A stretch of 36,977 nt of DNA from the NCBI GenBank assembly GCA_029858875.1, contig JAOUEE010000004.1, positions 1-36,977 of the forward strand, in the 5' to 3' direction. Shown piece by piece: positions 9,671-32,779 of the stretch. Source of the stretch: Acidimicrobiia bacterium (lineage in GTDB: Bacteria; Actinomycetota; Acidimicrobiia; Acidimicrobiales; SHLQ01). The stretch's first letter is position 1. Each line of letters opens with the position of its first letter. The notes beneath the pieces are model-generated. The model was not told where the DNA came from and searched no databases. It saw only the letters and a list, made by a program, of their open reading frames with translations. The translations under genes and the position numbers were made by a program.

Positions 9671-10918
9671 CTGCACCGCACGAGCGAACCCCGAGTCACC
9701 ACGCTGGCCAACGGCGTGCGGATCGTCACCGAGGTCATGCCCGGTACCCGATCCGCCGCCGTGGGCTGCTGGGTGGGCGTCGGCAACCGTGACGAACAAC
9801 CGTCACAGGCCGGCGCGTCCCACTTCCTGGAACACCTGGCCTTCAAGGGCACGTCGCGCTGGAGTGCGCCGCAGTTGGCGGCGGCCATCGACCGCACTGG
9901 CGGCGACCTGAACGCCTTCACCACGAAGGAGTACACCGCCTTTCACGCTCGGGTGCCCGACACCGAGACCGGTTTGGCCATCGACGTGCTCACCGATGTG
10001 ATTCGCCGCCCGGCCTTCACTGCCGCTGACGTCGAGTCCGAGCGCCAGGTCATCCTCGAGGAGCTCCTGCTCAGCGAGGATCTGCCCGAAGACATCGCGG
10101 CCACGGTGATGCACGGAGCGCTGTTCCCCGATCACCCACTCGGTTGGGAGGTGCTGGGGACCCACGAGTCGCTGGGCGACATGACCGAGGGCGACCTGCG
10201 CGGCTTTCATGACCAGTGGTATCGACCGGTGAACCTGGTGTTCGCGGCCGCAGGCAACGTCGACCACGATCAGCTGGTCGACGGCGTCGAGGCCACGTTC
10301 GCCGACGCCGAGTCCGGGCTCGTGCCCGAGCGCCGCCAACCGATTGAGCTGCCGACCGTGCCCCCGCTCGTCGAACGTCCCGGCGAGCAGACCCACCTGG
10401 CGCTGGGCTGGCGCTCGTTCGGCCACGACGACCCCGACCGCTATGCCCTCGCCGTGGCCAACCAGATCGTCGGCGGCGGACTGTCCAGCCGGCTCTTCCA
10501 GGAGGTTCGGGAACGACGAGGGCTTGTGTACTCGATCTACTCGGCGTCGGGTTCCTACGCCGACAGCGGCACGTTCTCGATCCATGCCGGCACAGCCAAC
10601 ACCCGGGTGGCCGAGCTGCTCGAGGTGGTCGATGGTGAGATCGCCGACCTGGTGTCGCGTGGCATCACCGATCAGGAGCTGGACGTGTCCCGCACGGGAT
10701 TCGTGGGTGCCACCCTGCTGGGACTGGAGGACTCGAGTAGCCGCATGGTACGGATGGCCACCGGTCTGACGGTGAGAAACCGGGTGACGCCCATCGAGGA
10801 GACGCTCGCCGCCATCGCCGCGGTCGAGGCCGACGACGTGCATCGGGTGCTGCGACGAGTGCTGGGGGAGGGCCGGGTCCTGGCCGCCGCCGGGGCGGTG
10901 GCCGCGCTGGCGGCCTGA
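9671..10918 (+). CDS. M16 family (insulinase/mitochondrial-processing-peptidase-like) zinc peptidase
   Basis: HFLEHLAFKGT (HxxEH), RTGGDLNAFTTKEYTAFHARV; first conventional start is GTG 9716, but conserved N-terminal VTTLANGVRIVTE extends upstream, so CTG 9671 is proposed. Confidence 0.85.
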   Translation: MHRTSEPRVTTLANGVRIVTEVMPGTRSAAVGCWVGVGNRDEQPSQAGASHFLEHLAFKGTSRWSAPQLAAAIDRTGGDLNAFTTKEYTAFHARVPDTETGLAIDVLTDVIRRPAFTAADVESERQVILEELLLSEDLPEDIAATVMHGALFPDHPLGWEVLGTHESLGDMTEGDLRGFHDQWYRPVNLVFAAAGNVDHDQLVDGVEATFADAESGLVPERRQPIELPTVPPLVERPGEQTHLALGWRSFGHDDPDRYALAVANQIVGGGLSSRLFQEVRERRGLVYSIYSASGSYADSGTFSIHAGTANTRVAELLEVVDGEIADLVSRGITDQELDVSRTGFVGATLLGLEDSSSRMVRMATGLTVRNRVTPIEETLAAIAAVEADDVHRVLRRVLGEGRVLAAAGAVAALAA

Positions 10919-23306: not shown

Positions 23307-23881
23307 TGGGAGCGGCCCTGCACCACACCTCCCACTTCGTGACCAATGCGGCCAACATGCTCACGCTGGCCCGGATCGCCGCGTCACCGGTGTTGTTCTG
23401 GCTGGTGCTCGAGAACGAGGCCACCAGCGGAGCGTCGTGGGGGGCGGTGCTGTTGGGTACGATCATGGCCGCCACCGACACCTTCGACGGTCGCCTGGCC
23501 CGTCGGAGCGGTGTCACCCGTTCGGGCGCCTTCCTCGACCCGCTGGCCGACAAGGTGGTGGTGATCGGGGCCAGCTGGTGTCTGGTGGAGGTCGGGGGCT
23601 ACTGGTGGCTGCCGGTCACCCTCATCACCGTGCGAGAAGTGGGGATCTCGCTGTGGCGCTCCTACTGGCTTCGTCGAGGACTGGCGGTGCCCGCCCGGCG
23701 ATCGGCCAAGTACAAGACCCTGGTCCAGGGGATTGCCCTGCTCATTGCCGTGTTGCCACCGCTCGAGGACCACCGGTGGGTCATTGCCACGGCCCTGTGG
23801 TTGGCCGTAGTCTTCACCCTCGTGTCCGGCCTGCAATACCTTCGAGATGGGCGCGCCGCCACCTCCACCACGGGTGCGTGA
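23306..23881 (+). CDS. pgsA: CDP-diacylglycerol-glycerol-3-phosphate 3-phosphatidyltransferase family
   Basis: NAANMLTLARIAASPVLFWLV; CDP-alcohol phosphatidyltransferase motif with DTFDGRLARRSGVTRSGAFLDPLADKV. Confidence 0.9.
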   Translation: MGAALHHTSHFVTNAANMLTLARIAASPVLFWLVLENEATSGASWGAVLLGTIMAATDTFDGRLARRSGVTRSGAFLDPLADKVVVIGASWCLVEVGGYWWLPVTLITVREVGISLWRSYWLRRGLAVPARRSAKYKTLVQGIALLIAVLPPLEDHRWVIATALWLAVVFTLVSGLQYLRDGRAATSTTGA

Positions 23882-25097
23882 GCGGGCCGCCGGGGAGCAC
23901 CGCCTCGTGAGAGCGTTGGCCGTGGTGCTCGCCCTCGTCGGAGCCCTCACCACCCTGGTCCCGCCGGCCGGGGCCGGTGTGGTCGTACCCCCGGGCGATG
24001 ACCTGTTCGTGGTGCACGACTCGGTGGTCATCAATGCCCGCCCGCAGCTGCGCCACCGGCTCGAGTCGTGGAACGTCGAGTACCTCGGCTTCCACGGCAT
24101 GCAGGCGGTGGCTGCCAACGAGTTCCTCGACCGACGAACGGCACCCATCCCCGACACGGTGGTGGTGGCGCTCAATTTCAACCGGCGCACACCCGCGCAG
24201 GTCAAGGCCGACTTCCAGGGGCTGCTCTCCCGGCTGGCGCCGGCCAAGCGCATCATCTGGGTGCTCCCCGGCATCTACGGCGATCACATCCCGCCGTTTC
24301 GCGAGACCATGCTCGACGTCGTCAGCCAGGACGTCCGGGTCGAGGTGGTCGACTGGCACGAGTACTACCGCACCAGCAAACAGATCGTCGACTACCTGGG
24401 CGTGCATCTCACCGACTACGGGGCGTGGGTCTACGCGGCCATGATCGACCGCGTCCTCGATCGGGTCGGGCCGGGCGACCTGCCGTCCACGGGCAACGTC
24501 GGCCAGATGAGCTCGCGCCCGACGGGTGAGTCGGTGTCGGGCTGGGCGCTCGACCTCGAATCCGCGGCATCGCGCCGGGTCGATGTCTACGTCGACGGCG
24601 AACGTCGCCGTCGGGTGCGGGCCGACCGCACCCGTCAGGACGTGGCCGCGGCCTATGGGTTGGGGGCCGAGCACGGGTTCCGGGCCCGCTTCGGGTTGGA
24701 GGACGGAACCCATCGCGTGTGCGCCTTCACCGCCACCGGCGCCGGTCGCGGGATGCAGGCGCTGGGCTGCGGGTCGCTCGATGTTCGTCATGATCCCCTC
24801 GGCGATCTGGGCGCGGTCAAGCGGGCGGGTCGTGAGGTGCAGGTCAGGGGCTGGGCGTTCGACCCCGACCGGGAGGCCGCCATCAGGGTGCACGTCTACG
24901 TCGGCGGCCGCTTCGTCACCGGCGCGGTGGCCGACGAACCCCGGGCCAACGTGGCCAGCGCCCATCCGGGCCGAACGCACACCGGATTCGACCTCTCGAT
25001 GGAGCTCCCGGTGAGCGACGATGCGGTGTGCGTGTACGCCATCGGCGTGGGTCGGGGCCGAAACGAGAGCTTGGGCTGCGCGTCGGTTCCTTCGTGA
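23847..25097 (+). CDS. Secreted SGNH-like (acyltransferase C-terminal type) protein with two beta-rich GWA(L/F)D...VYV(D/G)G repeats
   Basis: Signal peptide-like ALAVVLALVGALTTLVPPAGAG; VDWHEYYRTSKQIVDYLGVHLTDYGAWVYAAMI; repeats VSGWALDLESAASRRVDVYVDGE and VRGWAFDPDREAAIRVHVYVGGR; true start may be a downstream GTG near 23908. Confidence 0.7.
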   Translation: MGAPPPPPRVRERAAGEHRLVRALAVVLALVGALTTLVPPAGAGVVVPPGDDLFVVHDSVVINARPQLRHRLESWNVEYLGFHGMQAVAANEFLDRRTAPIPDTVVVALNFNRRTPAQVKADFQGLLSRLAPAKRIIWVLPGIYGDHIPPFRETMLDVVSQDVRVEVVDWHEYYRTSKQIVDYLGVHLTDYGAWVYAAMIDRVLDRVGPGDLPSTGNVGQMSSRPTGESVSGWALDLESAASRRVDVYVDGERRRRVRADRTRQDVAAAYGLGAEHGFRARFGLEDGTHRVCAFTATGAGRGMQALGCGSLDVRHDPLGDLGAVKRAGREVQVRGWAFDPDREAAIRVHVYVGGRFVTGAVADEPRANVASAHPGRTHTGFDLSMELPVSDDAVCVYAIGVGRGRNESLGCASVPS

Positions 25098-26599
25098 CCC
25101 GGGTCCTGGTGGTCCTGAGCCTGGTCCTGGTCGCCTGCTCCTCCTCGGAGAGCGGGTCGGCGTCGTCCACCAACCCACCCACGGTGGCGATCACGAGCGG
25201 CTCCGAGTCCTGCCAGGTGACACCGGAGGTGATCTGGCTGGTGGAGGGGCAGACCGCCCGCGCGACCGTGGCGTGCGATCGTGGCGACCCGATCGTCACC
25301 CTCGACGACGCCCCGGCCGGCCTCGACTTCGAGGAGGGCACCCTGACGTGGACACCGAGCCTCGACCAGGCCGGGACCTACCCGCTGGTCCTCGGTCCCG
25401 GCATCGAGTGGACGGTCGGGGTGGCCGACGCCTTCGCCGACCCCGACAACGTGGCCGTGGCTGCACCCGAGACGCTCACCCACGAGTTCGGCCTGCAGGT
25501 GTTGCACCTGTACTCGGGCGAGGGGCTGTCCACCGACTATCACGACGGCACACTCGTGCACGGCGGTCGATCGAGCGCCGTGGAGGTCCGCCTGCGCGGC
25601 GCCCTCTCGCTCCAGTATCCGAAACCGAACCTCACGGTCAAGGTCCCCGACGGATTCCGCAGCGGCGACCCCGCCTTCGACGGATTGGATCGCCTGGTGC
25701 TCGTGGCCGGATTCGACGACACCTCCCTGATCCGCAACCGCCTGGCTCAGCAGCTCTGGGCCGACATCGATGATCGCCACCTGACCGTGCCCCATGCGAA
25801 CGTGGTGCTGTACCTCGATGGCTACTACGCCGGCTTGTACACCCTGCTCGAGAACGTGAACGACGACTATCTCGCACGGCGTGGCTTCGACCCGGCCGCC
25901 CAGCTCTTCAAGGCCGCCGATGCCCGGGCCGACTTCCGCCTCGACGATGATCCCGATCCGACGGTCGGGTTCGAGAAGAAGAGCGGGGAGCCCGTGGACG
26001 GCCCGGCCGCCCTCGGGCCCGTTGCCGATCTGGTGGACTTCGTGGCCCTGGCCGACGAGGCCCGCTTCCGGGCCGACCTCGCCCGCTGGATCGATGTCCC
26101 CGATGCCATCGACTGGTTCGTGTTCGTCAGCTTCATCTCTGCCGGGGACTCGGCCAACAAGAACGCGTATTGGGTCCAGCCGGCCCGCGGCGGCCCGTTC
26201 CGGTACGTCCCGTGGGACTTCAACCACAGCTTCGGGCAGGATTTCGGCACGGCGCGACTGGCACCCGAGGCGCAGCTGCCCGAGGAGTTCACCGTCCGCA
26301 ATGGCCTCTTCGAACGGCTGTGGGCCGACCCGGCTCGACGCGAGGAGGTGGTGACCCGCTATCGGGAGCTGCTCGCCGGGCCATTGGCCCCGGTCGCGCT
26401 GGAGCGGACGGTCGATGGCCTCGAAGCCGAGATCGACGCCAGCCTCCAGCGCAACGATCAACGATGGGGCGAGGCGTACCGCACGTTCCGTCTCTGGGTC
26501 GACCGCACCGACTTCCGGGACGGCCCGGGTGAGATCGCCTACATCCGTGAGTGGATCGAGCGCCGCCATCAGGCCGTGACCGAGGCGTTGAAAGGCTGA
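25094..26599 (+). CDS. CotH kinase family lipoprotein
   Basis: Lipobox VLSLVLVACSS; VEVRLRGALSLQYPKPNLTVKV, LIRNRLAQQLWADI, GYYAGLYTLLENVNDDYLARRGFD, PFRYVPWDFNHSFGQDF. Confidence 0.88.
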   Translation: MTRVLVVLSLVLVACSSSESGSASSTNPPTVAITSGSESCQVTPEVIWLVEGQTARATVACDRGDPIVTLDDAPAGLDFEEGTLTWTPSLDQAGTYPLVLGPGIEWTVGVADAFADPDNVAVAAPETLTHEFGLQVLHLYSGEGLSTDYHDGTLVHGGRSSAVEVRLRGALSLQYPKPNLTVKVPDGFRSGDPAFDGLDRLVLVAGFDDTSLIRNRLAQQLWADIDDRHLTVPHANVVLYLDGYYAGLYTLLENVNDDYLARRGFDPAAQLFKAADARADFRLDDDPDPTVGFEKKSGEPVDGPAALGPVADLVDFVALADEARFRADLARWIDVPDAIDWFVFVSFISAGDSANKNAYWVQPARGGPFRYVPWDFNHSFGQDFGTARLAPEAQLPEEFTVRNGLFERLWADPARREEVVTRYRELLAGPLAPVALERTVDGLEAEIDASLQRNDQRWGEAYRTFRLWVDRTDFRDGPGEIAYIREWIERRHQAVTEALKG

Positions 26600-26645
26600 C
26601 CCAAGACGGTCAGGCGACAGTCAGCAACGCTACGCTGCCGTCACC

Positions 26646-27470
26646 GTGGGAACATCTTCCGGGGCCATTCCGGCCCTCGACCGCCTCAGCACGTTGCTGC
26701 CGCTCGAGACGCCGTCTCTGGCGTCGGTGCGCGCGGCCATCGGGGTCCTCGACCCGTGTTCACTGTCCGAGCTCGAGCAAGCCCGACTGTTGCGGCGGGT
26801 GGACACCAAGTTCGTGCTGTCGGTCGACGATCTGGCGGTCGTGTTGGGTGAGCTGGCCGACCGCTATCAGGTGCTGGTGGTCGACGGTGAGGTCCTCCAT
26901 CGTTACGAGAACCAGTACTTCGACACCTTCGACCGGGCCAACTTCGACGCGCATCACAACGACGACGTCGGACGGGTGAAGTACCGCTACCGCCGCTATT
27001 CCGGTACCGGCGAGGTGTTCTTCGAGACCAAGCACAAGACCAACACCGGTCGGATGGAGAAGGAACGGGTGCTCGTGAGCAACTTCGCCCGGTCGCTCTG
27101 TCCCGAGGCGAACGAGCTGGTGTGTCGGCTCGGCGCGCATCGTCCCGAGGCACTGGCGCCCACGCTCTACGGAAGCTTCCTGCGGATGGCCATCGTGGCC
27201 CGCGACCGGTCGGAGCGGGCCACCATCGACGTGGGCCTGGAGTTCGCCATGGGCGATCGGCGAGCGTCGACCCGTCGGCTGGTCGTGGCCGAGGTGAAGC
27301 AGCCCCGCTTCGATGCACGCTCACCGTTGGTGGATGCGATCACGGCTGCCGGCGGTCGCCGCAGCCGGTTCACCAAGTACTGCGTGGGACTGCTGGCCGT
27401 CGATGGGCAGCGCAAGCACAATGCCTTCAAGCCCCTGTTGCGTCTGATCGACGCCATCGAGGCTGTCTGA
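26646..27470 (+). CDS. VTC-domain (polyphosphate polymerase-like) protein
   Basis: RRVDTKFVLSVDDLAVVLGEL, YENQYFDTFDRANFDAHHNDDVGRVKYRYRRYSGTGEVFFETKHKTNTGRMEKERV, FTKYCVGL. Confidence 0.9.
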   Translation: MGTSSGAIPALDRLSTLLPLETPSLASVRAAIGVLDPCSLSELEQARLLRRVDTKFVLSVDDLAVVLGELADRYQVLVVDGEVLHRYENQYFDTFDRANFDAHHNDDVGRVKYRYRRYSGTGEVFFETKHKTNTGRMEKERVLVSNFARSLCPEANELVCRLGAHRPEALAPTLYGSFLRMAIVARDRSERATIDVGLEFAMGDRRASTRRLVVAEVKQPRFDARSPLVDAITAAGGRRSRFTKYCVGLLAVDGQRKHNAFKPLLRLIDAIEAV

Positions 27471-27524
27471 GATCTGGGTCTGCCGGCCGGTCGTTGCCCC
27501 CCGCCCCCAGTAGGCTCTGGCGCC

Positions 27525-28151
27525 ATGTCCGTCCTCGCCGCGCTGTGGTTCGACACCGAGCTCTTCATCGGCGATCGGCTGGCCGAGCTGGCGTTCCGTT
27601 TCACCATGGACCTCGTGGTGGCCGCCTTCATCATCCGGGGTGTGTACTTCCGGCAGGTGCGCAACGCCGAGTACGTCACCACCTTCTTCGTGTTCAACGT
27701 GTCGGTGTTCTTCCTCGTGTACATCATGAACGGGTTGGACCTCGACGTCGGTTTCGGCTTCGGCCTGTTCGCGCTGTTCGCCGTGTTGCGCTTCCGGACC
27801 GTCGCCGTTCCCTACACCGAGTTGACGGTGGCGTTCGCCGTCATCGCGGTGGCGGTCATCAACGCCATCTCGGTGGGTGCCCTCACCTTCGCCGAGGTGT
27901 GGTTCGCCAACATCGGAATCGCCGGCTGTGTGTACCTGGTGGGGGCGCTGTGGGCCGACCGCCAGGACGTGGTGCGAGCGGTGCGCTACGAACGCATCGA
28001 GAACGTGCGGCCCGACCGGGTGGAGGACCTCCACACCGATCTGCGTGATCGTCTGGGCCTCGACGTGGTCTCGGTACGGGTCGACGAGGTCGACTTCCTC
28101 AACGACACGGCGCTGCTCCAGGTCACCTACCGGCGGCGTCCCTCGACGTGA
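27525..28151 (+). CDS. DUF4956-like membrane protein
   Basis: Multi-TM, GFGLFALFAVLRFRTVAVPYTELTVAFAVIAVAVINAIS; adjacent to VTC and CotH genes. Confidence 0.82.
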   Translation: MSVLAALWFDTELFIGDRLAELAFRFTMDLVVAAFIIRGVYFRQVRNAEYVTTFFVFNVSVFFLVYIMNGLDLDVGFGFGLFALFAVLRFRTVAVPYTELTVAFAVIAVAVINAISVGALTFAEVWFANIGIAGCVYLVGALWADRQDVVRAVRYERIENVRPDRVEDLHTDLRDRLGLDVVSVRVDEVDFLNDTALLQVTYRRRPST

Positions 28152-31100
28152 GTACGGGGCGCGCCGCGATCCTGCTCGCGGTGGCTGGCATTCTCGGAAC
28201 GGCCTGCAGCGGCAGTGGCCCAGGATCAGCCGATCCGTCGGCCTCCGTCGGTGGCGACGGTGTGGCCGTCGCCGGTTGCGAGGACATCCAGCGCACGTTC
28301 GTCGGTCGCGAACGTCCGCTGCCGGGCGGCCATGTGCAGCTCGACGTCTTCCCGATCGTCGACGCGGGCCGGTCGACGGTCGACGCCGGCGAATGCGTGA
28401 CGGTGCGTGACGACGCCAACGGGGCGCGCCTGGAGTCGGCGGCCAGGGTGGCGGACACGACCAGGAGACAGATGGCCATCCTGGTGGACCCCGGTCGGTC
28501 TGAGTCCGACCGCGATGGAGCCGTCGCACGCGTCGACGCGCTGCTCGACGCACTGGGAGAAGCGGAAGCGGCCTTGTACCAATGGGGCCCCGTCGACAGT
28601 CCGCTGGCCACTCCGGCGCACCACGTCGATGCCACCAGCAACTGGGTGGTGGCCGCCGATGCCGGCGCGGTGGACGCCAACTGGCGGGAATCGCGTTTCG
28701 ATCTGGCCGATGCCTTCCAGTCGTTGGCGGCCGGCACCACCCAGTGGCCGGCCGCGTCCGATCCTTCGCAACCGGTGCTGGGACGAACGAGCTTCGACGT
28801 GTTCGACATGACGGCGGGCTCGGCCGAGCTGGTCGTCAGCCACACCCACGGGATCACCGCGTGGATCAACGGTGTCGAGGTGCTCACCAGCAACCTCACC
28901 GACGCAGGTGTGGCTGACGCCGGGTCCGGCCGGCGCCGGGCCCGCGTCACGGTGCCCGCCGAGTTGTTGCAGTCGGGCACCAACGCGTTGGCCGTGGAGA
29001 TGCAACGGACGGCCAATGGCGATGCCCCGGAGCTCGAGGCCACCCTCACGGGGTCGTCGTCGCAGGTCCTCCCCGTGGCACCGATCGCCCCCACCGACCG
29101 AGCGTCCCTGTTGGACCGAGCCGTGGTGGCCGAGATGGCGCCCACCGCCGCCGAGCCGGGCCGGGTGGCCGAAGCCGTCGGTCTGGTGGTCGACGACATC
29201 GAGAACACCCACGACGACGAGACCGACGCACTGCGCGCCGTCGTGGTGGTGGCGCCGGGTCGATCTCCCGAGGCCTTCGACCTGGACGGTCGGGCCGATG
29301 CGGTCGTGGTGTGGGTCGGGGCCGGAGCCGAGCCCCGCGACGGCACCGACATCGTCATCGACGACGCGGCCGCGCCCGAGGACATCGCCGCCGCGATCAC
29401 GGCCCGCCTCGACGCCGTGGCCAGCGGGCGACTGGTGTTGGGCATCTGCGGAATCGGATCGGGCGTCGAGGCCGAGGTGGAGGTGGGTGTCGTCAACCTG
29501 ACCACGACCCTGCGCGACCCGCCACCCGAGGACCACGAAGGCGAATGCGACCCGGCGGCGGCCGCCGCGGCCGAGCCCGACCCGGTCGATCGCGTGTCCC
29601 TCGTTCTCGACGAGGCCAGTCGGGCCATCTGGAGCCAGCGGGTGGCCGACAACGACAAGGCGGCCTTCGCCGCAGCCGTCGACCTGGGCACGGGATGGGG
29701 GCCGGTCGACGCCGAGGTGAAGCTCCGCGGCCAGTCGTCATTGGAGTGCGGCCGGAAGTCCTACGACGTCAACCTGGCCGGCGGGGACCGTCGCTTCATC
29801 GACGAGGAGGCCGCCTTCGACGAGTTCCTGCTGGTGTCGATGTGTCTCGACGAGGGGTACGTGCGGACGCACACCATGCTCACGGTGCTGGCCGACGCCG
29901 GGCTGTTCCCACCGTTCTTCCGTTTGGTGCACCTCGACATCGACGGGGCCTCGGCCGGCGTCTACCTGCTGATCGAGCCCCCGGACGAGGCGTTGCGGGA
30001 CCGTCAGCCGACGCTGGCGGGGGTGGTTCGTCGGGCCTTGGACACCAGTTTCCAGGAATCCTCGGTCACGTGGAGTGGCCTCGAGCGTGATGACGTCGTC
30101 TTCGACGCCTACGAGAACACGATCGTGGCCGCCGAGGAGGCGGGGGCCGACCTCCTCGACCGTGCGGGAGCGCAACTCGATCTCGATCGCTATCTGCGGT
30201 GGCTGGCCCTGATGTCGCTCACCGAGAACGGCGACTACGCGGACGAGGTCTACTTCGCCGGCGTCGGTGTGGCCGACGCCGGTCGGTTGGCCACGTTCTG
30301 GACGCCCGTGGGCTGGGACCCCGATGACATCTTCCGTCCCTGTCACTTCGACGACTTCCAGTTCGTCGACCCCAGCGGGCTGTCCTCGTGCGCCGAGGCC
30401 CGGATCGACCAGGCGCTGCTGTCGAACGCCGAGGGCTACCGGGCCTACGGCGACGCGGTGGAACAGGCACTGGAATCCTTGACGCCTGCGGACTTCGATG
30501 CCGGACTGACCCGCACTCGGGCCCGGCTGGCCGAGCTCGTGGACGACGAGGCGGCGGCGGCCATGCCCGAGCTGGCCGCGCTGACGGCGCTCGACACCGC
30601 CACCGCCGAGGGGTTCCTGGCCGCGGTCGACGCCGAGATCGAGCAGCTCAACACGGCGTTCGCCGCCCGCCACGCCTTCCTGGCGGAGCTCACTGGCGGC
30701 GTGACCAGCGGGGATGAGCCGTTGCGCCCGCCCGCTGGACTCGAGGCGACCGTACCCAAGTTGGTGCTGGCCGACCAGCGCTACCCGGTGCGCATCGCGG
30801 CCATGGGTTCCGACGGGATCGACCGACGCCGCAACGACGAAGTGATCGTGCGTCACGGCGACGAGAACCCTCACCTGTTGCACCACGGTCTGGCCGTGGT
30901 CACGTTGTCGGCATCGGGACTCGGCGCCGGGTCCCTGTTCCTGGACGGCGACGAGGTGGCCGCGCCGGTCGTGCGCGACGGGCCCGATCGCCGCGCCCCC
31001 GATCGCATCGACGACCAACAACAGTGGGGTCCCGACGAGATCGTCCTGGTCGACCGGTCGTTGACCATCGGCCCCGGCGGATCGCTGACGATCGCGCCGG

Positions 31101-32083
31101 GGACCACCATCGTGGCCGCACCGGGCAGCAACATCGATGTCGCGGGGTCCCTCGTGGCGACGGGCAACGCCGACGCTCCGGTGTGGTTCGGTGACGCCGA
31201 TCCGATCGACCCGTGGGGTGGCCTGGCGGTGCAGGGTGGCCGACTGGAGCTCGACCACGTGATGATCACCGGCGGAGGAGGGGACGCCGCCCGGGCCTTC
31301 GGGCACTCCGATAGCCAGCCCCTGATCGGGGCGGCCGACGAGGCATCGGTGGTGGTGCGCGACAGCGTGGTGGCCGACTCGACCGGCAAGGCGTTGGGCA
31401 TCGCCCGATCGAGCCTCGACCTCTCGGGCACCGTCGTCACCCGCACCGACACGGGGGGCGAGCTCGTCGACAGCGTCTTCTCCGTCGCCGACTCGTGGTT
31501 CCTCGACTTCCCCACCACCGAGGCCCCGGCCGCTGACGACGACAACGACGGCCTCTACCTGGGTCCCACGTCGGCGCCGAGCACCATCACCGACACGGTC
31601 TTCATCGGCGGCATCGACGATGGCATCGATCACGCCGGCGGCGACGTCACGCTGGATCGGGTGTGGGTGGAGGGCTTCAGCCACGAATGCGTGGCCGCCT
31701 CCGAGACCGGTTCCCTTCGCATCGTCGATTCGGTGTTGCGGGACTGCCAGCACGGCCTCGAGGCGGGATACGGGTCGCCGACGGTCGACGCCGATCACGT
31801 GCTCTTCCTGGCCAACGGCGTGGCCATCCGCTATGGAGATGACTACGTCGTTCCCTCGGCCGGGTCGCTCACCGTCTCGAACTCGTTGCTGGTCGACAAC
31901 GTGTCGGGGTTGGCCGTCGACACCCTGCCGTCCGAGCTGGCCCTCACCGGCACCGTCACCGACGACGAGGGTGACGCCGACGATGGCCTGGTGGTGGATG
32001 CGCCGACCCTCGACCAGCAGTTCCTCTGGCCCGACGGCGAGGCGGGGCTGGCGACGGGCTGGCCCCGATCAGGCGGTGGGTGA
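28148..32083 (+). CDS. Large CotH-kinase-family lipoprotein with C-terminal right-handed beta-helix-like region
   Basis: Lipobox AVAGILGTACSG; EVKLRGQSSLECGRKSYDVNLAGGDRRF, DGASAGVYLLIEPPDEAL, FWTPVGWDPDDIFRP; C-terminal parallel-beta-helix-like repeats (IVDSVLRDCQHGLEAGYGSPTVDADHVLFLANG). Confidence 0.83.
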   Translation: MSTGRAAILLAVAGILGTACSGSGPGSADPSASVGGDGVAVAGCEDIQRTFVGRERPLPGGHVQLDVFPIVDAGRSTVDAGECVTVRDDANGARLESAARVADTTRRQMAILVDPGRSESDRDGAVARVDALLDALGEAEAALYQWGPVDSPLATPAHHVDATSNWVVAADAGAVDANWRESRFDLADAFQSLAAGTTQWPAASDPSQPVLGRTSFDVFDMTAGSAELVVSHTHGITAWINGVEVLTSNLTDAGVADAGSGRRRARVTVPAELLQSGTNALAVEMQRTANGDAPELEATLTGSSSQVLPVAPIAPTDRASLLDRAVVAEMAPTAAEPGRVAEAVGLVVDDIENTHDDETDALRAVVVVAPGRSPEAFDLDGRADAVVVWVGAGAEPRDGTDIVIDDAAAPEDIAAAITARLDAVASGRLVLGICGIGSGVEAEVEVGVVNLTTTLRDPPPEDHEGECDPAAAAAAEPDPVDRVSLVLDEASRAIWSQRVADNDKAAFAAAVDLGTGWGPVDAEVKLRGQSSLECGRKSYDVNLAGGDRRFIDEEAAFDEFLLVSMCLDEGYVRTHTMLTVLADAGLFPPFFRLVHLDIDGASAGVYLLIEPPDEALRDRQPTLAGVVRRALDTSFQESSVTWSGLERDDVVFDAYENTIVAAEEAGADLLDRAGAQLDLDRYLRWLALMSLTENGDYADEVYFAGVGVADAGRLATFWTPVGWDPDDIFRPCHFDDFQFVDPSGLSSCAEARIDQALLSNAEGYRAYGDAVEQALESLTPADFDAGLTRTRARLAELVDDEAAAAMPELAALTALDTATAEGFLAAVDAEIEQLNTAFAARHAFLAELTGGVTSGDEPLRPPAGLEATVPKLVLADQRYPVRIAAMGSDGIDRRRNDEVIVRHGDENPHLLHHGLAVVTLSASGLGAGSLFLDGDEVAAPVVRDGPDRRAPDRIDDQQQWGPDEIVLVDRSLTIGPGGSLTIAPGTTIVAAPGSNIDVAGSLVATGNADAPVWFGDADPIDPWGGLAVQGGRLELDHVMITGGGGDAARAFGHSDSQPLIGAADEASVVVRDSVVADSTGKALGIARSSLDLSGTVVTRTDTGGELVDSVFSVADSWFLDFPTTEAPAADDDNDGLYLGPTSAPSTITDTVFIGGIDDGIDHAGGDVTLDRVWVEGFSHECVAASETGSLRIVDSVLRDCQHGLEAGYGSPTVDADHVLFLANGVAIRYGDDYVVPSAGSLTVSNSLLVDNVSGLAVDTLPSELALTGTVTDDEGDADDGLVVDAPTLDQQFLWPDGEAGLATGWPRSGGG

Positions 32084-32779
32084 CCACCGGGCCGAACGCA
32101 GTATCCGGCTCTCCCACTGGTCGCGCAGCTCGAGACCATCGTGCATCCACGTGCCAGGCGCCTTCAGCTCGGCCGGTACTTCGGTGATGAGCAGCCCGGA
32201 CATCCAGCGGGGCCTGGTGACCCGCTGCCACAGCACGATCTCGCGCCGGGCGCCGGCACCCCACACGGTGCGGAACGACGCCTCGACCTGCAGCAGGGAG
32301 GTCTCGGCTTCATCGCCGGTGTCCATCCAGCTGGCGTAGTGGGCGCCGCTGCGCTCGACGTACGTCTCGAGCAGACCCTCGCGCGGCCAGACCGTGTCCT
32401 CCATGAACAGCACCGGGTCGTGGTCGACACCGCCGACACCGACGGTGCTGAGGTCGATCTCCTGCATGCCCGACCACGGCAGCGGGGCCAGCACCTTGGC
32501 CACGACATCGTGGCGGCACTCGTCGAGTCCGGCCGCGATCGGCGCCAGGTCGCCCGTGAGCGTCCGGTCGACGAGATGCCCCCACGCCGCGCCGTCGGTG
32601 ACCGCGGTGACGGTGACCACCCGGTACGACGGGCCGGATCCGTGGGCGAGGTGCAGGTAGTGGAGCAGCCGGGCGTGGTCCCCGTCGGCCACGGCCGGTG
32701 CCCAGTCGTGGCGGAGCCTGGCCTCGAACCGGTCCTCGTGACGCCCGTCGACCGAATGGACCTCGTGCACGTAGAACAT
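32069..32779 (-). CDS. Hypothetical protein, possibly dimeric alpha/beta-barrel (NIPSNAP/EthD-like)
   Basis: MFYVHEVHSVDGRHEDRFEARLRHDWAPAVADGDHARLLHYLHLAHGSGPSYRVVTVTAVTDGAAW; ATG at 32779 preceded by TAGGAT. Confidence 0.65.
   Translation of the reverse strand: MFYVHEVHSVDGRHEDRFEARLRHDWAPAVADGDHARLLHYLHLAHGSGPSYRVVTVTAVTDGAAWGHLVDRTLTGDLAPIAAGLDECRHDVVAKVLAPLPWSGMQEIDLSTVGVGGVDHDPVLFMEDTVWPREGLLETYVERSGAHYASWMDTGDEAETSLLQVEASFRTVWGAGARREIVLWQRVTRPRWMSGLLITEVPAELKAPGTWMHDGLELRDQWESRILRSARWSPTA

Follow-up and report, generated by a model that had tools for sequence, protein, structure and literature searches.

The genes for a CotH-type kinase, a VTC-type polyphosphate polymerase and a DUF4956 membrane protein form a trio that is independent of Pel, as judged by PelG, contrary to a statement published in 2025. 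The example studied here lies on contig JAOUEE010000004.1 of an Acidimicrobiia bacterium (assembly GCA_029858875.1), of which a stretch of 36,977 nucleotides, hereafter the window, was analyzed. To judge from the protein families, genes B to E of the cluster (Table 1) may well encode a membrane-and-surface phosphate system that is a Pel-independent variant of the trio, a reading that we hold with about as much belief as doubt.

Organization of the gene cluster

All five open reading frames (ORFs) of the cluster lie on the plus strand, in keeping with the co-directional genes of the original prediction, and each has the G+C pattern over codon positions that is typical of coding DNA. The genes are also as closely packed as described there. 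Genes A and B overlap by the four bases GTGA, D and E overlap in the same manner, with the start of E (28148) inside the overlap, and the gaps measure 46 bases between B and C and 54 bases between C and D. The start of B is more likely the GTG at 25094, which overlaps the stop codon of A; residues of B are numbered below in a 503-aa protein counted from 25088. A pattern scan for promoters and terminators gave no convincing candidate between the genes, which plausibly form a single transcript.

Table 1. Genes of the cluster and regions of protein E (window coordinates)
Feature	Coordinates	Strand	Remarks
Gene A, SGNH-like secreted protein (putative)	23907..25097	+	ORF from 23847, likely start GTG 23907
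Gene B, CotH-kinase lipoprotein	25094..26599	+	ORF from 25028; PF08757; lipobox LVAC
Gene C, VTC polyphosphate-polymerase-like protein, cytosolic	26646..27470	+	PF09359; Vtc4 catalytic residues kept
Gene D, DUF4956 membrane protein	27525..28151	+	PF16316; AlphaFold model; VTC partner
Gene E, CotH lipoprotein, 1311 aa	28148..32083	+	PF08757
E, N-terminal region, 480 aa, starting with signal sequence	28148..29587	+	No family match
E, CotH domain, aa 524-842, with D696 and D724	29717..30673	+	Pfam, aspartate alignment
E, beta-helix-like repeats (putative), about aa 960-1260	31025..31927	+	Pattern only

The labels CotH for B and E, VTC for C and DUF4956 for D were borne out by Pfam matches well above cut-off: B and E match PF08757 with E-values of 2e-54 and 5e-24, respectively, C matches PF09359 with 3e-18 (66.5 bits, cut-off 23), and D matches PF16316 with 2e-40 (138.7 bits, cut-off 30.6). 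The SGNH label of A gained no such support, as A has no match in Pfam or NCBIfam. By eye, Ser and His blocks are present in A, with LGVH in place of DxxH.

The neighbourhood reads ftsK–exchanger–rimO–pgsA–cinA, and the cluster is located between the last two of these genes. The pgsA–cinA interval (window 23881-32756; relatives L117-L130, L212 and L214) is a variable site: it is closed in 11 relatives, in which the aligned ends of the two genes are at most 42 bp apart, and holds differing inserts in genomes G113 and G002. In the window it also contains, between E and cinA, a minus-strand gene for a 236-aa protein with no assigned family (32069-32779); this gene and E share 15 bases at their 3′ ends. 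G113, the closest sister by cinA (76% identical), has the order pgsA, A homologue (40%), 893-aa ORF, cinA, with no CotH, VTC or DUF4956 gene at this site. The C-terminus of A has two copies of a repeat (GWALDL...VYVDG...HGF), of which the sister homologue apparently has one.

The original prediction counted the SGNH-like gene as part of the system. Because G113 carries A in the same place without B to E, and because no VTC or CotH locus fetched from the order encodes A, A was rejected as a core member. Thus, the conserved core is probably B to E, with A outside it; A is probably an older resident of the site and B to E an addition specific to the window lineage. G+C content is even throughout the cluster, which gives no sign of recent foreign DNA by composition and implies that any acquisition was either old or from a similar genome.

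The VTC protein and its putative membrane partner

Protein C carries the VTC domain alone, with neither an SPX domain nor a fused membrane domain detected by Pfam. When a profile of 14 VTC proteins was aligned with yeast Vtc4 structures, R114 and R116 of C fell on the HRLRWY arginines R264 and R266, which are essential for polyphosphate synthesis (PMC8749416). Furthermore, the lysines of the Vtc4 motifs RQTTKY and SVKARF have K55 and K139 as their respective counterparts, and R180 and R191 also fall on arginines of Vtc4. K244 aligns with K458, the second KFSKF lysine, which is catalytic in Vtc4 and has a dispensable equivalent in a plant triphosphatase (PMC4641920). Among 63 sequences, these residues are 94-100% conserved, R114 and R116 being invariant and K244 reaching 94%. 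The possibility that the catalytic residues might be missing on alignment, raised at the outset, is therefore removed for C.

Protein C is likely a polyphosphate polymerase on these residues, not certainly so, since the basic R51 and K218, which resemble the polymerase, are accompanied in the tunnel by an acidic D53, a trait of hydrolytic relatives that we count against the polymerase model (the mapping was partly by eye, and the fourth position was not confidently aligned). It also counts against the model that no VTC protein from a bacterium with reported activity was found. The acidic D53 would fit an alternative that we consider unlikely, in which the VTC protein is a tunnel-fold phosphohydrolase or phosphate sensor, DUF4956 is a signalling protein of the membrane, and CotH acts alone with ordinary ATP. 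The tunnel fold includes hydrolase and cyclase members (PMC4641920), and an ACT-like C-terminal domain, proposed for the DUF4956-type membrane protein SIR_1592 of Streptococcus intermedius (PMC12345266), is weakly suggested in D; these points are set against the presence in C of equivalents to all three of R264, R266 and K458 and against the basic R51 and K218.

An AlphaFold model of D built with 17 sequences (pLDDT 76) has about five membrane helices and a C-terminal beta-alpha-beta-beta domain. A fold search of this model against the PDB gave no significant match, the weak ones including ACT domains, and a channel function for D is accordingly a guess. R89 and R91 are invariant in the 17 sequences and, in the model, sit where the third helix ends; if the C-terminal domain is inside, they would be on the cytosolic side and might form a possible entry for a polyanion. 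No relatives of D were found in viral contigs.

The predicted CotH kinases

Residues D354 and D377 of B align with the essential aspartate pair of B. cereus CotH (5jd9). The spacing of 23 residues is shared by B, by the aligned aspartates of 5jd9 and by D228 and D251, the essential aspartates of B. subtilis CotH (PMC7821199), to which D354 and D377 of B and D696 and D724 of E are equivalent. Protein B has an Asn (WDFN) where most CotH proteins have the second Asp of WDxD, and this we count against the preferred model of a surface phosphate system.

The N-terminal 480 aa of E belong to no known family by profile search. The C-terminal third resembles a parallel beta-helix by visual pattern, and a beta-helix is plausible there. 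The beta-helix fusion claimed in the original prediction has not gone beyond that pattern: the region has no match in Pfam, NCBIfam, PDB sequences or a plasmid search, its hydrophobic periodicity is no higher than that of shuffles, and a single-sequence AlphaFold run gave an unusable model (pLDDT 34). Among the loci compared, no full-length relative of E was found, and phmmer returned E alone, which makes the place of E in a shared system the weakest part of the model. The CotH proteins of relatives bear lamin-tail, PA14, RTX and dockerin-like domains. In sister genome G113, which lacks VTC, there is a 1494-aa CotH protein (L104, 8029-12513) with a CSLREA-like N-terminus and lamin-tail, PA14 and Ig-like domains.

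Conserved linkage of VTC, DUF4956 and CotH

Among 347 genomes of the phylum, 39 encode VTC, at 42 loci. All but one of these loci (41) have a same-strand DUF4956 gene no more than 1.5 kb away, and 24 have CotH within a distance of 6 kb. VTC is present in 24 of the 28 genomes that have CotH (Fisher p 6e-23, an overstated value, as genomes were treated as independent). The 148 genomes of the window's order give the same picture. The VTC–DUF4956 pair is nearly obligate and CotH co-occurs with it strongly, in agreement with the conserved linkage that the original prediction called for. The 18 VTC loci with no CotH within 6 kb count against the preferred model. Together with the lack of a full-length relative of E, they are what could be said for B to E being independent envelope genes that are merely neighbours; this loose assembly is very improbable in view of the pairing and co-occurrence and of the recurrence of the B-C-D order in another phylum. 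That order, CotH–VTC–DUF4956, is present on a plasmid of Deinococcus taeanensis (34% identity for DUF4956 and 32% for VTC). A Trueperaceae contig has VTC–DUF4956–CotH, the order of C-D-E.

In an unrooted tree of concatenated VTC and DUF4956 sequences, with ultrafast bootstrap values of 98-100 on the splits described, the window groups with L086 and L100, two relatives from the same order. This group adjoins sequences from Chloroflexi, Methanospirillum, Trueperaceae and a short 'Flavobacterium' metagenome-assembled genome (MAG) contig, and VTC precedes DUF4956 in all of them. A long branch leads to the remaining sequences, which are mostly actinobacterial and have the reverse gene order. The archaeal Methanospirillum loci (L134 and L135) have the same VTC–DUF4956 subtype as the window. 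A genome of the window's own family has a DUF4956–VTC pair of a different subtype (L089, G145:C39, 7327-9878). This pair is in the same ftsK neighbourhood but at another place, flanked by homologues of the window genes at 9716 and 10989.

Relation to Pel and to other surface functions

Publications of 2020 and 2025 report CotH, poly-phosphate polymerase and DUF4956 genes as an accessory set in Gram-positive operons for the exopolysaccharide Pel (PMC7112168, PMC12345266). When S. intermedius loses SIR_1592 or the CotH gene SIR_1594, the amount of Pel changes, and deletion of either lowers aggregation by more than half in diluted sputum medium; an aggregation defect was not reported for the polyphosphate polymerase SIR_1593 (PMC12345266). 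This missing defect of the VTC gene is counted against the preferred model. The authors of that 2025 study stated that the three-gene arrangement was not found outside the Pel locus in their analyses. In the present genomes, in which PelG was the Pel component searched for (PelD, E, A and F were not searched separately), PelG is missing from the window's own genome (94% complete), from the order as a whole (148 genomes, 147 relatives plus this one) and from all phylum-sample genomes that have VTC, and the trio is therefore not confined to Pel. The single-contig genomes G006 and G134 have VTC, DUF4956 and CotH together and no PelG. Among the window neighbours scanned there are no Pel genes, and the cluster is not contiguous with pelDEADAFG. 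Membership in a Pel accessory module was rejected on the absence of PelG from these genomes.

A related alternative, which we regard as possible though less probable than a surface phosphate system, is that the cluster is an orphan accessory module that serves a non-Pel surface polysaccharide made elsewhere in the genome and tunes its amount or export, polyphosphate being a regulator or by-product. The published role beside Pel and the altered Pel levels of the mutants (PMC12345266) agree with this, as do some neighbours of the pair: GT2/GtrA and phosphodiester glycosidase genes in Microbacteriaceae, Cthe_2159 sugar-binding proteins elsewhere, and two-component regulators nearby. In the window, however, there is no glycosyltransferase in or beside the cluster, and neither the genome nor the order has PelG.

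Other companions of the VTC–DUF4956 pair vary by lineage. In Microbacteriaceae and relatives, mostly of one genus, the phosphodiester glycosidase and GT2/GtrA genes are upstream of the pair; at L143-L203, mostly Microbacterium, an NAGPA phosphodiester glycosidase and a GT2/GtrA glycosyltransferase are directly upstream of DUF4956–VTC. On plasmids of Alphaproteobacteria, the pair is accompanied by an esterase-like protein of the 'phytase family' and, in one case, by a phosphate transporter. At L217-L220 (Aminobacter, Shinella and Nitratireductor plasmids) the phytase-family gene follows DUF4956–VTC, and there is no annotated CotH within 8 kb. The Cthe_2159 carbohydrate-binding protein accompanies VTC–DUF4956 in Anaerolineaceae; such proteins flank the pair at L136 (4812-6809, Anaerolineaceae) and at L138 (4718-6538, the 'Flavobacterium' MAG, whose contig of 7 kb may be misbinned). 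A response regulator and/or a histidine kinase is present at about 23 loci. Because most of these companions have to do with the envelope, sugars or phosphate, we prefer to read the cluster as a surface phosphate system.

Proposed mechanism and comparison with known systems

A surface phosphate system encoded by B to E would work in three steps. First, C would make polyphosphate from ATP in the cytosol, as its residues suggest. Second, D would be the membrane partner of C and would either pass the chain out or anchor and regulate the enzyme; obligate pairing, membrane topology and the precedent of yeast VTC, in which polyphosphate is made in the cytosol and moved across the membrane during synthesis (PMC9911596), point to this role. 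Third, the lipoprotein kinases B and E, placed outside the membrane by family and signal sequences, would phosphorylate surface proteins or matrix components, and E may use its C-terminal repeats to bind its substrate or a polymer of the matrix. Such a system would give the cell a polyanionic surface, or biofilm matrix, that is modified with phosphate. The interpretation first proposed for this cluster is supported in part: its surface-anchored kinase and polyphosphate machinery is well supported as regards families, linkage and catalytic residues. The term 'uncharacterised' applies to the mechanism and no longer to the trio, published beside Pel with deletion phenotypes; nothing was found that points to mineral formation, the other function suggested.

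Compared to known systems, the cluster has several distinguishing features. First, the Gram-positive Pel accessory set consists of the same three families in contiguous genes (secreted CotH, membrane DUF4956 and VTC), whereas the window has no Pel genes, two CotH genes flank VTC–DUF4956, and its subtype is closest to Chloroflexi, Methanospirillum, Trueperaceae and Deinococcus copies. Second, the eukaryotic VTC complex (Vtc4) shares the VTC tunnel domain, matching catalytic residues and a membrane partner, but the VTC protein of the window lacks SPX, and the DUF4956 gene encodes the membrane component separately. Third, the Bacillus spore-coat kinase CotH (5jd9) shares the CotH domain and both essential aspartates; B and E, in contrast, are lipoproteins, not spore-coat proteins, E has large N- and C-terminal extras, and B has WDFN. 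The VTC–'tubulin'–CotH genes of C. perfringens NELoc-2 likewise combine VTC and CotH in one locus (PMC2879425).

These results correct the published claim that the trio's gene order had not been detected outside Pel loci. They also bear on two open questions, namely the role of many bacterial VTC proteins and the phosphate source of secreted bacterial kinases. It is conceivable, if improbable, that polyphosphate made by VTC and exported via DUF4956 is the phosphate donor for the secreted CotH kinases, so that no extracellular ATP would be needed. If this were true, it would mean a general, Pel-independent form of extracellular phosphorylation across several bacterial phyla, with the VTC–DUF4956 part also found in methanogens. 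The compact CotH–VTC–DUF4956 unit without Pel genes makes both questions testable in a small system.
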